A program made the position numbers and the translations under genes. A model generated the notes under the pieces. It did not search any database and was not told where the DNA came from. It was given only the letters and a program-made list of their open reading frames with translations. Below, in pieces: positions 24,691-61,331 of a stretch of 64,000 nt of DNA (the first letter of the stretch is position 1; every line of letters begins with the position of its first letter). Origin of the DNA: an uncultured Aquimarina sp. (GTDB lineage: Bacteria; Bacteroidota; Bacteroidia; Flavobacteriales; Flavobacteriaceae); NCBI GenBank assembly GCA_947498785.1, contig CANMLS010000026.1:16761-80760 (forward strand), read 5' to 3'.

Positions 24691-24733
24691 ATACCCTCCT
24701 GTTGTTCTTGAACAACAGGAGGGTATTTTTTAT
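24691..24733. terminator. Bidirectional terminator between convergent genes
   Basis: ATACCCTCCTGTTGTTC-TT-GAACAACAGGAGGGTATTTTTTA. Confidence 0.75.
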
Positions 24734-25812
24734 CCTCTTGCTACTTTCTCTTGATGATTAATTGATTCTTGATGAATTGCTTTATAAATTCTCAATATAA
24801 ATTCTTCACTCAATCCTTTTTCTTCTCCTTCAAGAATCATTTTTCCTAATATTTCGTTCCAACGTTTGGATTGTAAAATAGCAACATTCTGTTTAGCTTT
24901 TACCTTCCCTATCTCATCAGAGATTTTCATTCTTTTTGACAAAGTTTCTAACAATTGATCATCTGCTATATCAATTTTTGCACGAAGTTCTCCCAATGCT
25001 TTTTGATACGCTTCATCCACTCCAACTTCTTTACGAATCTTTAAATCTTTCATATGCTGAATTAGAGTGTCTGGTGTAATTTGCTGTTTAGCATCACTCC
25101 ATGCATTATCTGGATCATAATGAGCCTCTACAATCAACCCGTCAAAATTTAAATCTAAAGCTGTTTGCGATAAATCAAAAATCAAATCTCTTCTTCCTGC
25201 AATATGAGAAGGATCAAGGATCAACGGTAAATCAGGAAAACGATTCTGTAAATCAATTGGAATTTGCCACTCTGGAATATTGCGATATTTTGTCTTTTCG
25301 TATGTTGAGAAGCCTCTATGTATTACACCTAGATTTTTAACATCAGCAGTATAAAAACGTTCTACGGCTCCTAACCAAAGTGATAAGTCAGGATTAATTG
25401 GATTCTTTATTAATACCGGATTGTCTATTCCTTTGCAGGCATCTGCAATATCCTGCACGATAAAAGGAGATACGGTACTTCTGGCACCAATCCAAAGGAT
25501 ATCTACCCCATGTTCTAAAGCTAGTTCCACATGATGAGGACTTGCTACTTCTGTAGCAATTTTCATCCCAGTTTCTTCTTTAGCACGTTTCAACCATTTC
25601 AAGCCTAAGGCTCCAACGCCTTCAAAATTACCTGGTCTGGTCCTTGGTTTCCAAATACCTGCACGCAATACAGTCGCATCAGAATCTTTAAGTTGGTGTG
25701 CAATTTTCAACACTTGATCTTCTGTTTCTGCACTACAAGGTCCACTGATAACTAATGGGTGATCCAAATTATATGCATCAAGCCAGTTTCTAAGTTCTTT
25801 CTTATTCTCCAT
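24730..25812 (-). CDS. Bifunctional 3-deoxy-7-phosphoheptulonate synthase / chorismate mutase type II
   Basis: N-terminal DAHP synthase (VISGPCSAETEDQ..LRAGIWKPRTRPGNFEG), C-terminal CM (LRAKIDIADDQLLETLSKRMKISDEIGKVKAKQNVAILQSKRW). Confidence 0.93.
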   Translation of the reverse strand: MENKKELRNWLDAYNLDHPLVISGPCSAETEDQVLKIAHQLKDSDATVLRAGIWKPRTRPGNFEGVGALGLKWLKRAKEETGMKIATEVASPHHVELALEHGVDILWIGARSTVSPFIVQDIADACKGIDNPVLIKNPINPDLSLWLGAVERFYTADVKNLGVIHRGFSTYEKTKYRNIPEWQIPIDLQNRFPDLPLILDPSHIAGRRDLIFDLSQTALDLNFDGLIVEAHYDPDNAWSDAKQQITPDTLIQHMKDLKIRKEVGVDEAYQKALGELRAKIDIADDQLLETLSKRMKISDEIGKVKAKQNVAILQSKRWNEILGKMILEGEEKGLSEEFILRIYKAIHQESINHQEKVARG

Positions 25813-25874: not shown

Positions 25875-26723
25875 TTAAGTTATTCCTTTCAAAATTGCTT
25901 TAATATGGTTTGTATCTTCCATTTCTTTATAAATTTCATCAAAATTATCCTCTTTCATTAATTTTTTAAATTGCTCTAGATTCGCAATATATTCTTCCAG
26001 CGTTTCGATTACATTATCCCTATTATGCTTAAATATGGGAGCCCACATCGCAGGCGAACTCTTTGCTAAACGAACGGTTGAAGCAAATCCACTTCCTGCC
26101 ATATCAAAAATATCCCTTTCATTTTTCTCTTTTTCAATCACTGTTTTTCCTAACATAAAAGAACTAATATGTGATAAGTGAGAAACGTAGGCAATATGTT
26201 TATCATGAGACGAAGGATCCATATATCTAATCCTCATCCCTAATCTAGAAAAAATCTCCATTCCTTTTTCTTGCAATTTAAATGCTGTTTTTTCAACCTC
26301 ACAAATGATATTGGTTTTTCCTCTATATAAATTTGCAATTGCTGCTTGTGGTCCAGAAAATTCTGTTCCCGCGATTGGATGCACTGCCAGATAGTTTCTA
26401 CGTTTAACATGCCCTGAAATCGTATTGCATAATTTTTCTTTGGTTGAACCTGTATCAAAAACCAAGCAATCATCATGTATACTATCCAAAATCATAGGTA
26501 ATATTCCTACCGTTGTATCTACAGGTATTGCCACAATTACCACATCGGCTTTATCTAACTTATCGATACTCGATTTATGGTCAATCAACCCTAACTCTAG
26601 TGCTTTTTCAAGATTTTTTTCACTCCTATCTATACCATATATTTTTGCTTCATTAAATGCAGCTTTAATATCTATAGCAAATGACCCTCCGATTAATCCT
26701 ATTCCTATAATGAATACTTTCAT
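25875..26723 (-). CDS. tyrA: Prephenate dehydrogenase (start at MKVFIIGIG preferred)
   Basis: MKVFIIGIGLIGGSFA dinucleotide-binding motif, VFDTGSTKEKLC, HPIAGTEFSGP. Confidence 0.92.
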   Translation of the reverse strand: MKVFIIGIGLIGGSFAIDIKAAFNEAKIYGIDRSEKNLEKALELGLIDHKSSIDKLDKADVVIVAIPVDTTVGILPMILDSIHDDCLVFDTGSTKEKLCNTISGHVKRRNYLAVHPIAGTEFSGPQAAIANLYRGKTNIICEVEKTAFKLQEKGMEIFSRLGMRIRYMDPSSHDKHIAYVSHLSHISSFMLGKTVIEKEKNERDIFDMAGSGFASTVRLAKSSPAMWAPIFKHNRDNVIETLEEYIANLEQFKKLMKEDNFDEIYKEMEDTNHIKAILKGIT

Positions 26724-27877
26724 ACTGTTACTTGTAATCTTTTTATAGCTTCTTTTATATCTTCTTTGGATACACAAAGTGAAAAACGAATATATCCTTT
26801 TCCATTACTTCCAAAAATATCTCCAGGAGCAATAAATATATCGTTCTTATATAATATGTTATCTATAAACTCAACTGCATTGACTTCTTCGGGTAATTTT
26901 GCCCAAACAAACATCCCTATAGCCGTTGTATCATAACTACACCCCAATAATGTAGCCAATTCCCATATTAAGTTTCTTCTTTCTTTATAAACTGCATTCA
27001 TTTTATCATACCAATCATCTGCAATCTGTAATGCTGCTATTGCTCCACGTTGTATGCCTTGAAACATACCACTATCCATATTACTTTTCACTTTAAGAAT
27101 TGCTTCAATCTTATCTGCATTTCCACTTACCATTCCTACACGCCAACCTGCCATGTTAAAAGTTTTACTTAAAGAGTTTAGTTCTAATGCTACTTCTTTT
27201 GCTCCTTCTATTGATAATATACTTATAGGGTTTTCATTTAGAATAAAGCTATATGGATTATCTTGCACCAATAGAATACTATGTTTTTTAGCAAAATCGA
27301 TCATCTTTTTATAGAGCGCTACACTTCCTGAAGCTCCTGTAGGCATATTAGGGTAATTAACCCACATAATTTTAACCTTACTCAAATCTATTTTTGAAAG
27401 ACTATGAAAATCAGGCTCCCAACCATTATTCTCTAAAAGATCATAGAACACTGGTTTTGCTCCTACCAAATTAGCAACTGAAGTATACGTAGGATATCCT
27501 GGATTAGGTACTAACACCTCATCTCCTTCATTTAGGTATGCCAATGAAATATGCATAATCCCTTCTTTAGAACCCATCAAAGGAAGAATTTCATTTTCGG
27601 GATTTAAAGATACCTGATACTTTGCATCATAAAAACCTGAAATAGCTTCTCTTAATTCTGGTAATCCCTGATAACTTTGATATTTATGCGCTCCATTTAC
27701 CGTTACTGTATTTTGTATCGCCTGTACAACAACTTTAGGGGGATCTAAATCTGGACTCCCAATAGCCATGTTAAGAATAGGTTTACCAGCTGCTAATAAA
27801 CCTCTTACTTCTCTCAATTTGCTCGAAAAATAATATTCTTCTACTGTTTCTAATCGTTTTGCAGTTTGAATGCTCAT
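26720..27877 (-). CDS. Pyridoxal phosphate-dependent aminotransferase (class I/II), aromatic biosynthesis operon
   Basis: MAIGSPDLDPP, NYPNMPTGASGS, LSKTFNMAGWRVG. Confidence 0.9.
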   Translation of the reverse strand: MSIQTAKRLETVEEYYFSSKLREVRGLLAAGKPILNMAIGSPDLDPPKVVVQAIQNTVTVNGAHKYQSYQGLPELREAISGFYDAKYQVSLNPENEILPLMGSKEGIMHISLAYLNEGDEVLVPNPGYPTYTSVANLVGAKPVFYDLLENNGWEPDFHSLSKIDLSKVKIMWVNYPNMPTGASGSVALYKKMIDFAKKHSILLVQDNPYSFILNENPISILSIEGAKEVALELNSLSKTFNMAGWRVGMVSGNADKIEAILKVKSNMDSGMFQGIQRGAIAALQIADDWYDKMNAVYKERRNLIWELATLLGCSYDTTAIGMFVWAKLPEEVNAVEFIDNILYKNDIFIAPGDIFGSNGKGYIRFSLCVSKEDIKEAIKRLQVTV

Positions 27878-28707
27878 CCGTTTTGATTTTTATATTCTCC
27901 AAGTACTTTTAATTCTAACGCCATTATTTTTAAAATAGACATTGCTTTCTCATAATCTTTGTACGATGTAAAGGTAACATCAACAAAAAAAGAATATTTC
28001 CAAGGCATACTGATAACGGGCAATGATTGAATTTTGGTTAAATTAAGACCACAATCGCTCATAACATTAAGCACTGTTGCAAGACTTCCTCTTTTATGAT
28101 CTGTAAGAAATTTTAAGGATGCCTTATTAACTTCTTCTTTTTCTGGAATTATATCTTTTCTAGTATTTAGAATAAAAAAACGAGTACTATTAGACTTTAT
28201 GGTTTGGATCTCTTTGGCTAAAATATTTAGTTGGTAGATATTCGCTGCTGTTTCACCCGCTACGGCAGCAATCCCTTTTAATTGTTGATCATGAATACGT
28301 TTAGCCACATCTGCTGTATCTGCATCTTCTACTAATTTAATATGTGGTAATCCTTTAAAAAATTCTTTACATTGTAGTAATGCCATAGGATGAGAATACA
28401 CTTCATTAATATCTGAAATTTCTTGTCCCTCTAAAGCCATTAAACAGTGGTGAATTGGCTGAAAATATTCTCCACTAATAGTAATATTATGTTCATCTAT
28501 ATAGGCATAATTAGGAATAATTGACCCTGCAATAGAATTCTCTATTGCCATAACAGCATCTGTGCTTTTATTTTGTTCTAGGCTATGTATCAATTCCTGA
28601 AATGACATACATTCATCTACAACGACATCTTCTCCAAAATATGCTTGAGCAACACCATGATGATACGATCCTTTTATTCCTTGTATGGCAACCTTTTTTT
28701 CTTTCAT
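27874..28707 (-). CDS. pheA: Prephenate dehydratase
   Basis: VAIQGIKGSYHHGVAQAYF, AIENSIAGSI, SNSTRFFIL (TRF motif), ACT region HKRGSLATVLNVMSDCGLNLTKIQSLPV. Confidence 0.94.
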   Translation of the reverse strand: MKEKKVAIQGIKGSYHHGVAQAYFGEDVVVDECMSFQELIHSLEQNKSTDAVMAIENSIAGSIIPNYAYIDEHNITISGEYFQPIHHCLMALEGQEISDINEVYSHPMALLQCKEFFKGLPHIKLVEDADTADVAKRIHDQQLKGIAAVAGETAANIYQLNILAKEIQTIKSNSTRFFILNTRKDIIPEKEEVNKASLKFLTDHKRGSLATVLNVMSDCGLNLTKIQSLPVISMPWKYSFFVDVTFTSYKDYEKAMSILKIMALELKVLGEYKNQNG

Positions 28708-28770
28708 AGACTATCTTGGTTCGTATTGGTATGTTTTTTATGATTCATTGGTTTTTTACATTTTGTTTCA

Positions 28771-28799
28771 AAAAAAAATCCCGATTTTTCATCGGGATT
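28771..28799 (-). terminator. Intrinsic terminator in the pheA leader (candidate attenuator)
   Basis: Minus strand AATCCCGAT-GAAAA-ATCGGGATTTTTTTTT between the leader peptide stop and pheA. Confidence 0.85.
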
Positions 28800-28829
28800 C
28801 TAGTTTTATAAATTTCTGCTTTATTTATT

Positions 28830-28907
28830 TTACATAGCGATCCCATTCTTACTTTTAAGATAAAAGAAGAAAAAATAAAATCGATTCCAAGTAAATAAAG
28901 TATCCAT
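28830..28907 (-). CDS. Phenylalanine-rich leader peptide MDTLFTWNRFYFFFFYLKSKNGIAM
   Basis: Codon by codon: ATG GAT ACT TTA TTT ACT TGG AAT CGA TTT TAT TTT TTC TTC TTT TAT CTT AAA AGT AAG AAT GGG ATC GCT ATG TAA; 6 Phe and 2 Tyr in 25 residues, upstream of pheA. Confidence 0.75.
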   Translation of the reverse strand: MDTLFTWNRFYFFFFYLKSKNGIAM

Positions 28908-28928
28908 TATTGTTTCATTATTACAATG

Positions 28929-28957
28929 CTAAAGTAGCTAAAACTATTACTATTCAA
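28929..28957 (-). promoter_or_regulatory. Candidate Bacteroidetes promoter for the phe leader (TTG-N18-TACTTTAG)
   Basis: Minus strand TTGAATAGTAATAGTTTTAGCTACTTTAG, near the TTG-N19-TAnnTTTG consensus, about 20 nt upstream of the leader ATG. Confidence 0.5.
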
Positions 28958-58917: not shown

Positions 58918-61331
58918 TATCCTTTTTCTGTTAATCTCAATATATCTCCAAAAACACCTCTTGCTGTAACTGCTGCACCAGCACCAGCACCTTGAATTAC
59001 TATGGGTTGGTCTCCATAAGACTCTGTATAAATCTCGAATATAGAGTCAGAACCTTTTACCTGTCCTAATGCGCTACTTTGAGGAACAGAAACTAATTTT
59101 ACATCAAGATTTCCTTTTTCTTTGGATAAATCTCCCCAAAGATCACCAATATACCTCAATACATGATTAGGTTTTTGCTCTTCTTTAATTTTTTGGTATA
59201 CAGGGTTCAAGTTATTTAATTTTTCTAAAAACTCTTGAGCTCTTCCTAATCTCAATTCTTCTGGAATTAAATTATGAATATTTATGTCATCAAATTCGTT
59301 GCTTAAATCCAATTCTCTTGCCAAAATCAATAACTTTCTTCCTACATCATTTCCACAAAGGTCTTCACGAGGATCTGGCTCTGTAAACCCTTTATCAATC
59401 GCTTCTTGTAGAACTTCACTAAACAATCGATTTTCATTAGAATATGTATTAAACAAATAGCTTAATGACCCCGAAAAAACTCCTTTGATTCTTGTGATAT
59501 TTTCTCCTGACAAATGCAACAATTTGATAGTATCAATAAGTGGCAATCCAGCTCCTACATTAGTTTCATATAAATACTGTTTTTGATTGCGCTCTAGTTT
59601 TTCTCTTAATTTTTTATAAAAATCAAAACTTAATGTATTTGCTACTTTATTTGAAGACACCAAATCAAAACCATGTTCTACCAGATGTATATAATGTGCT
59701 GTAAATGCTTCGCTTGCTGTATTATCTATAGCTATCAAATTTTCTAGATGATGTTCATCTGCATATCTAACAATATCTTCTATGGTATATGAAATTCCTT
59801 TTTCATCGATATCGTCTTTCCAATGTTTATTTATGCCATTTTTATCTAAAAGTACTTTTCTAGAATTCGCTACTGCAAAAATATTAAGGTTTATTTTTTT
59901 TCGTTTTTCGATCTGCTCTGAAGATTTCAGAATTTGTTCTATCAACGTACCTCCTACTAATCCGTGACCAAATATTGCAAGGTTAATTTTTTTAGCGATT
60001 TCAAAAATTTCTCCATGAATTACGTTTAACGCACGATGCAATTGTTCTTTTTTCACTACTAAACTTACGGTTGCACCAGTAACTGTATTATTAAAAAGTA
60101 ATGGGATCACTTGGTTTTTGATCAGTGCATTATAGGGTTTATGAAATGTACTCAAATCTTGACCAATAATTGAAATCACCGATACATTTTCTTCTATTGA
60201 AATACCACTAACATCGCGTTTGTGAAAATCAGATTCAAACTCTTGTTCTAATACAGCCTTAGCTTCTTTTGCTTTATCTGCTTCAACAACAAATCCTATT
60301 CCTCGCTCTGAAGAACCTTGAGAAATAATACTAACACTAATATTTTTATGTGCTAATACTCTAAATATTCTTGCATCTACACCTACTTTACCTAAAAGTC
60401 CTCTTCCTTCAAGGTTAATCAAAGCTACATCCTCTATAACTGAAAGAGATTTAATTCCTTTTTCACTTGAAGTAGCGGTAATTAAAGTTCCATCATTTTT
60501 ATAATCAAAAGTATTCAATATCCTAAGAGGAATGTTCTTTTCTATTAGCGGTATAATGGTCTTTGCATGAAGAATATTAGCTCCAAAGTATGCTAATTCA
60601 TTAGCTTCTGCAAATGACAATCTTTCTATTTTCTTCGCATCTGGGACCAAATCTGGATTTGCTGTATAAATCCCATTAACATGAGTAAAATTTTGTAATT
60701 CCTCAGCTTCTAGATAATTTGCCAATAATGATGCTGTATAATTGCTTCCATTCCTACCTAAAGTAGTTGTTTCATTATTGGTATTAGATGCTATAAAACC
60801 AGTAACTACATTTACAGTAGTTCCATTATGTTTATTAAAATGGCTAATCACATTTTCTTTAGACAACTTATCCAGAGGTTGGGCATCTCCAAACTGAGTA
60901 TCCGTAATTATAAGCGATCTACTATCAGTAAAATTAGCTTTAATATCTTTTTCTCGCAGGAGTTGTGTCACCAATTTTGCTGAAATCACTTCCCCTTGAG
61001 ATAGTACTTGATCTTTTATTCTTTTACTATAATCTCCTAAAAGAGACACTCCTTCAAAAAGTTTGTCAAGTGTTTCGAATTCCTGAGTAAAATCTACACC
61101 CTTAAAATCATCTAATTGATATTTTTTAAGAACTTCTAATTGTTCTTGATAAGGTTTGCCTTTTGATGCTTTTTCGAGAATCTCTTCTAGTTCATCTGTG
61201 GTATTACCCCTTGCAGAGAGCACCACTGTTATCCTCTCATTTTTTCTAACTTTATCTTCAATTATATTAATTACAGAATGAATTCCTTTTCCATTAGCTA
61301 ATGATTTTCCTCCAAATTTTAAGATTTTCAT
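58917..61331 (-). CDS. thrA: Bifunctional aspartate kinase / homoserine dehydrogenase I
   Basis: MKILKFGGKSLANGKGIHSV, TTLGRNGSNYTASLLANYL, GHGLVGGTLIEQIL, ETNVGAGLPLIDTI. Confidence 0.96.
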   Translation of the reverse strand: MKILKFGGKSLANGKGIHSVINIIEDKVRKNERITVVLSARGNTTDELEEILEKASKGKPYQEQLEVLKKYQLDDFKGVDFTQEFETLDKLFEGVSLLGDYSKRIKDQVLSQGEVISAKLVTQLLREKDIKANFTDSRSLIITDTQFGDAQPLDKLSKENVISHFNKHNGTTVNVVTGFIASNTNNETTTLGRNGSNYTASLLANYLEAEELQNFTHVNGIYTANPDLVPDAKKIERLSFAEANELAYFGANILHAKTIIPLIEKNIPLRILNTFDYKNDGTLITATSSEKGIKSLSVIEDVALINLEGRGLLGKVGVDARIFRVLAHKNISVSIISQGSSERGIGFVVEADKAKEAKAVLEQEFESDFHKRDVSGISIEENVSVISIIGQDLSTFHKPYNALIKNQVIPLLFNNTVTGATVSLVVKKEQLHRALNVIHGEIFEIAKKINLAIFGHGLVGGTLIEQILKSSEQIEKRKKINLNIFAVANSRKVLLDKNGINKHWKDDIDEKGISYTIEDIVRYADEHHLENLIAIDNTASEAFTAHYIHLVEHGFDLVSSNKVANTLSFDFYKKLREKLERNQKQYLYETNVGAGLPLIDTIKLLHLSGENITRIKGVFSGSLSYLFNTYSNENRLFSEVLQEAIDKGFTEPDPREDLCGNDVGRKLLILARELDLSNEFDDINIHNLIPEELRLGRAQEFLEKLNNLNPVYQKIKEEQKPNHVLRYIGDLWGDLSKEKGNLDVKLVSVPQSSALGQVKGSDSIFEIYTESYGDQPIVIQGAGAGAAVTARGVFGDILRLTEKG

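Follow-up and report, generated by a model that had tools for sequence, protein, structure and literature searches.

A candidate ribosome-mediated Phe/Tyr attenuator ahead of the pheA operon in Aquimarina and most tested relatives in the class Bacteroidia

Introduction

Leader-peptide attenuation of E. coli pheA is textbook knowledge, and Proteobacteria are the group in which classical attenuation is best known; how Bacteroidota regulate the synthesis of aromatic amino acids is, to our knowledge, little described. Here we analysed a window of 64,000 nucleotides from an uncultured Aquimarina sp. (contig CANMLS010000026.1), in which a short Phe-rich open reading frame (ORF) and a hairpin lie on the minus strand between kbl and the genes for phenylalanine and tyrosine synthesis. 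Do these elements form an attenuator, and if so, which amino acids would it sense? A sequence-only reading of the window had described a promoter-like site, a 25-codon ORF, an antiterminator core (GGGAT, 28844..28840), a terminator and pheA in that order, all of which were borne out to the base on the minus strand, while translation confirmed the six Phe and two Tyr codons that it had counted among the 25 codons of the leader MDTLFTWNRFYFFFFYLKSKNGIAM (Table 1).

Results

Organization of the leader and of the operon

The terminator begins 28 nt after the leader stop, and its fold scores z = -4.5 against dinucleotide shuffles, with z = -3.5 for the whole leader. Downstream, pheA, the aminotransferase gene and tyrA overlap or abut, with the DAHP synthase/chorismate mutase gene next in line, and the aminotransferase gene adjoins pheA in 138 of 139 Flavobacteriales loci. 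In one non-Flavobacteriales family (L179, L180, L183, L187, L194) no aminotransferase gene was found beside pheA, and the Phe/Tyr leader is kept. In another genome of the same genus (G027:C1:3855447-3856272) pheA apparently consists of two overlapping fragments and has an internal TAG, which is either a pseudogene or an assembly error; the leader of this locus (L079) is intact.

Table 1. Features of the leader region and operon, with positions in the window
Feature	Position	Strand	Evidence or remark
Promoter-like site, TTG-N18-TACTTTAG (Bacteroidetes -33/-7 type)	28929..28957	minus	Sequence; TTG at 28957..28955, TACTTTAG at 28936..28929
Leader peptide ORF, MDTLFTWNRFYFFFFYLKSKNGIAM	28830..28907	minus	ATG at 28907, stop codon ends at 28830; 25 aa
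Phe/Tyr regulatory codons of the leader			F10, Y11, F12-F15, Y16
Segment 1 (protector strand)	28876..28896	minus	Codons for LFTWNRF, overlaps start of Phe run
Segment 2	28828..28845	minus	Antiterminator core GGGAU 28844..28840 plus 3' flank pairing with segment 1
Segment 3, terminator 5' arm, AGAATCCCGAT	28791..28801	minus	Pairs with segment 2 or segment 4
Segment 4, terminator 3' arm, ATCGGGATTTT, plus T tract	28770..28785	minus	Hairpin search, fold z = -4.5
Intrinsic terminator, AGAATCCCGAT-GAAAA-ATCGGGATTTT plus T tract	28801..28775	minus	11 pairs
pheA, prephenate dehydratase, first structural gene	27874..28707	minus	NCBIfam PRK11898, 188.6 bits, below equivalog cut-off of 219
PLP-dependent aminotransferase	26720..27877	minus	Overlaps pheA stop
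tyrA, prephenate dehydrogenase	25875..26723	minus	NCBIfam PRK08507, 389.6 bits, above cut-off of 295
DAHP synthase/chorismate mutase fusion, operon end	24730..25812	minus	Matches to DAHP synthase and chorismate mutase models, each below cut-off
16-pair hairpin	24726..24691		After DAHP synthase/chorismate mutase gene

The leader and terminator are conserved upstream of pheA

The sequence-only reading had staked its proposal on the enrichment and conservation of Phe codons in the leaders of relatives. We drew pheA loci from 57 relatives, 148 genomes of the order and 80 named genomes, and compared 159 pheA upstream regions, nearly all from Flavobacteriales; an aromatic-rich leader with a terminator is present in 148 of them, so the proposal was not refuted on this count. 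To gauge chance, we asked for an ORF that starts with ATG, spans 14-35 codons, packs 5 or more Phe/Tyr into a stretch of 8 residues and has a terminator after it; this combination occurred in 142 of 158 genuine upstream regions of pheA and in 0 of 6,320 first-order Markov shuffles. A similar leader and terminator test was passed by 28 of 44 further upstream regions from other Bacteroidia. What we predict to be the same switch is found, then, in most of the relatives tested across the class Bacteroidia.

The leader peptides of Aquimarina follow the pattern MxxLFTWNRFYFFFFYFK..GIAM; elsewhere they take forms such as MSNNRFYFSNSFYFFF in Flavobacterium, MTKQYFWNGFYFYFFF in Arenibacter and Maribacter, and MKQICTFGLFYYFGFYY in more distant families. 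Promoter-like sites accompany them. In the 75 nt preceding the leader ATG, TAnnTT(A/T)G is present at 96 of 148 loci, compared with 10.7% of shuffles, and its commonest distance from the ATG is 17-22 nt; the full TTG-N15-23-box is seen in 65 of 148 (1.4% of shuffles). That the strict -7 motif is missing in about a third of loci counts against an attenuator. The combination of leader and terminator was not found in, among others, L072-L076, L070 and L071 (from 600-kb genomes), L056, L063 and L069, and in L086 the leader is present with its terminator beyond the search range. L072-L076, which belong to one family of the same order, have a distant pheA (~31% identity) with no aromatic leader upstream, and the attenuator appears to have been lost or replaced in this family. 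Near the pheA of a Flavobacterium-like genome we also observed a Flavo-1 RNA (RF01705, 80.1 bits; L031 94..175, minus strand).

A plainer reading would be that the hairpin merely stops transcripts running on from kbl and that a T-rich spacer happens to contain a Phe-rich ORF. It draws on the position of kbl, which precedes the leader in the same orientation with no further minus-strand terminator detected by hairpin search in between, and on the fact that T-rich spacers often hold Phe codons: an aromatic-rich ORF, with the terminator requirement dropped, turns up in 3.9% of shuffles. Against this, conservation of the leader extends through the order and the class regardless of the upstream gene, and the leader tail covaries with the terminator (see below), which a plain terminator would not need. 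Since the upstream gene lies on the opposite strand in 47 of 132 loci, read-through termination, which the sequence-only reading had itself named as the alternative, fails as a general function, and we give it almost no credence.

Alternative pairings covary across genera

Across lineages the terminator core varies (AUCCCG, AUCCUG, GUCUCG, GUCCCG, GCCUCG, ACCGCU and others), and the leader tail changes along with it, so that a 2:3 helix can form. The last aromatic codon is followed by segment 2 at a distance of 3-14 nt (median 8), and relative to the end of the stop codon segment 2 finishes between 24 nt upstream and 14 nt downstream. With RNAalifold the Aquimarina sequences by themselves recover 1:2 and 3:4, and because the leader is too invariant inside this genus to inform further, we used permutation tests between genera.

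In these tests the 2:3 duplex reached -10.1 kcal/mol with its own partners and -7.1 kcal/mol with permuted ones (z = -17), with 0 of 20000 permutations as good, and when partners were assigned by terminator class, only the true one of 40320 assignments was as good. Related sequences are not independent, a limit on these statistics that is partly met by the class-level permutation, by 41 divergent representatives in which the 2:3 covariation also holds, by its repetition in 28 loci of an independent set from Bacteroidia outside the Flavobacteriales (z = -7, 0/20000), and by the 1:3 pairing, a negative control that did no better than chance in the permutation test (z = -0.6, 5431/20000). The columns of 2:3 and 3:4 change jointly (A-U/G-C, U-A/C-G, C-G/U-A/G-C), with 37-40 of 40 sequences paired in five of the six columns. 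The GGGAU/AUCCC antiterminator that had been proposed for the window is upheld by this covariation, with the qualification that the window's own core is weaker, at 5 bp (duplex -7.7 kcal/mol) compared with the 8-bp helices of many relatives, which counts against the attenuator here.

A further helix, which the sequence-only reading had missed, is predicted between segment 1 and segment 2 with its 3' flank. No permutation out of 20000 matched this 1:2 pairing in 115 sequences, nor did any once the aromatic run had been left out in the 41 divergent representatives (z = -9.3, 0/20000). It may account for the conserved codons outside the Phe run, namely LFTWNRF and the NGIAM-stop end. When the window RNA is folded, the ribosome-free pre-terminator transcript gives 1:2, a ribosome on the Phe run gives 2:3, and a ribosome at the stop gives 3:4; despite the short core, the stalled-ribosome fragment still folds as 2:3, at -10.2 kcal/mol. 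Comparison of the sequences thus yields a leader ORF, its Phe/Tyr content, a terminator and a set of mutually exclusive 1:2, 2:3 and 3:4 pairings.

In Aquimarina, insertions and deletions as far as the last codon of the Phe run come in multiples of 3, while beyond the run both frame and stop are free to move and segment 2 is retained. Such a pattern would be expected of a run that serves as codons and a tail that serves as RNA.

One could also suppose that the leader works mainly through the translation of pheA, by translational attenuation or coupling, or through an RNA-binding protein or ligand, with no ribosome-controlled termination. Nothing direct speaks for this, though leader peptides are reported to have roles in trans elsewhere (PMC7298713), and we regard it as very unlikely: the conserved hairpin is, with its T tract, a canonical terminator and sits tens to more than 100 nt before pheA in most loci, and no sequence-conserved aptamer was seen in segments that change their sequence and keep their pairing.

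A model for ribosome-mediated control

The features by which an attenuator is recognized are present together: a leader ORF rich in codons for the products of the pathway, a terminator before the first gene, a covarying antiterminator, a protector helix, and a segment 2 that closely follows the regulatory codons and lies close to the stop of the leader. Leader conservation and covariation both support the analogue of the Phe attenuator that had been proposed for a Bacteroidetes pheA operon, and we are strongly inclined to read the locus as a ribosome-mediated transcription attenuator that would set the expression of pheA, the aminotransferase, tyrA and the DAHP synthase/chorismate mutase according to how much charged Phe-tRNA and, probably, Tyr-tRNA is available.

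In the model that we infer, the transcript would begin ~15 nt before the leader ATG and the ORF would be translated. With Phe and Tyr in ample supply, the ribosome would reach the stop and cover segment 2, the terminator 3:4 would form, and transcription would end before pheA. With Phe (or Tyr) in short supply, the ribosome would stall on the FYFFFFY run and cover segment 1, leaving segment 2 free just downstream; 2:3 would then form and RNA polymerase would enter the operon. Were the leader left untranslated, 1:2 would form and the terminator would win.

Both aromatic residues occur in every distinct leader

The sequence-only reading is further refined by the presence of Tyr in every distinct leader. 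Phe and Tyr both lie inside the aromatic run in 139 of 139 distinct leaders, the runs of which comprise 616 F, 307 Y and 56 of all other residues together. A joint Phe/Tyr sensor is favoured because both residues are in every run, which suggests that Tyr would be sensed alongside Phe.

Alternatively, the attenuator might sense Phe only, its Tyr codons being tolerated by-products of TTY to TAY changes. Phe is indeed commoner in the runs by the counts above, and E. coli pheA is governed by a Phe leader without Tyr codons. However, Tyr is present in all of the runs, in which hardly any of the other residues one base away from Phe occur (17 S, 3 C and 2 I, with L and V absent), and the operon also holds tyrA and DAHP synthase; we consider a sensor of Phe only rather unlikely. 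The joint Phe/Tyr sensor, taken further, would be a bivalent attenuator of the whole class Bacteroidia in which mixed codons jointly control the whole operon, an ancient RNA family absent from Rfam, and this broader proposal we favour with some reserve.

A pattern search of the genome for a second Phe/Tyr run returned this leader as the only exact match; with one to two mismatches allowed, the counts (75/73) were barely above those of a reversed-pattern control (62/61).

Other amino-acid leaders in the same genome

Before trpE of the same genome (L219 2050..2172, minus strand, contig C5) stand the leader MKVILTNNWWWSSQNENVVR and a terminator; this element matches Bacteroid-trp (RF01692) at 62.7 bits and, by analogy, gives attenuation a precedent within the genome itself. 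Just upstream of hisG (L218, contig C1) lies a short ORF, MKNILLHHHHSYILAQAW, which contains HHHH, ends shortly before the hisG frame and is likely a His leader peptide with no Rfam match. The window also encodes the homoserine dehydrogenase domain of a thrA-like fusion gene (58938..59543, minus strand), and a Thr leader or Thr-rich ORF was looked for upstream of this gene and not found.

Discussion

The closest known counterpart is the E. coli pheL-pheA attenuator (Rfam Phe_leader, RF01859), which likewise has a Phe-rich leader ORF, protector, antiterminator and terminator segments, and pheA as its first structural gene. The pheL peptide differs in sequence from the leader found here, and in contrast to pheL-pheA the Aquimarina-type leader always has Tyr and stands before an operon to which tyrA and DAHP synthase also belong. 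RF01859 aligns with the window full-length and in the right register at 20.9 bits (E = 0.68), below its gathering score of 55, and matches 0 of 20 relatives. Bacteroid-trp is also a leader-peptide attenuator, from the same phylum, but it uses Trp codons and serves the trp operon; it had no match at pheA in the window or the 20 relatives and matched only at trpE of the same genome. In a scan with Rfam of the window and 20 relatives, the pheA element drew only sub-threshold Phe_leader, Trp_leader and chance matches. Codons of more than one amino acid are known from the Lactococcus Leu/phe leader (RF01743) and the enteric ilv leader, which differ from the present one in their amino acids and operons.

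For Bacteroidetes attenuators our search of the literature found only a transcriptome study of Flavobacterium psychrophilum (PMC9723704, 2021) and a general remark in PMC7366714. The former describes strong clues that amino-acid operons are subject to leader-peptide attenuation, and its main text lists, with no architecture given, a structured 5' element before pheA that is conserved among further genera of Flavobacteriaceae and has no Rfam match. To judge from that text, this is almost certainly the same element as ours, and because of it and the attenuation clues the principle of attenuation at pheA is not new. The class-wide family, the full architecture and the Phe plus Tyr character appear to be new, and no earlier statement of a Phe plus Tyr leader was found in the literature searched, which lay mostly outside subscription journals.

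A conserved, class-wide Phe/Tyr attenuator would provide a ready-made RNA family and would explain how Phe and Tyr synthesis could be co-controlled without a TyrR-like regulator. If the bivalent reading is true, shortage of either Phe or Tyr would open the whole branch, and the attenuator would offer a natural pair of amino-acid inputs testable in culturable Flavobacteriaceae.
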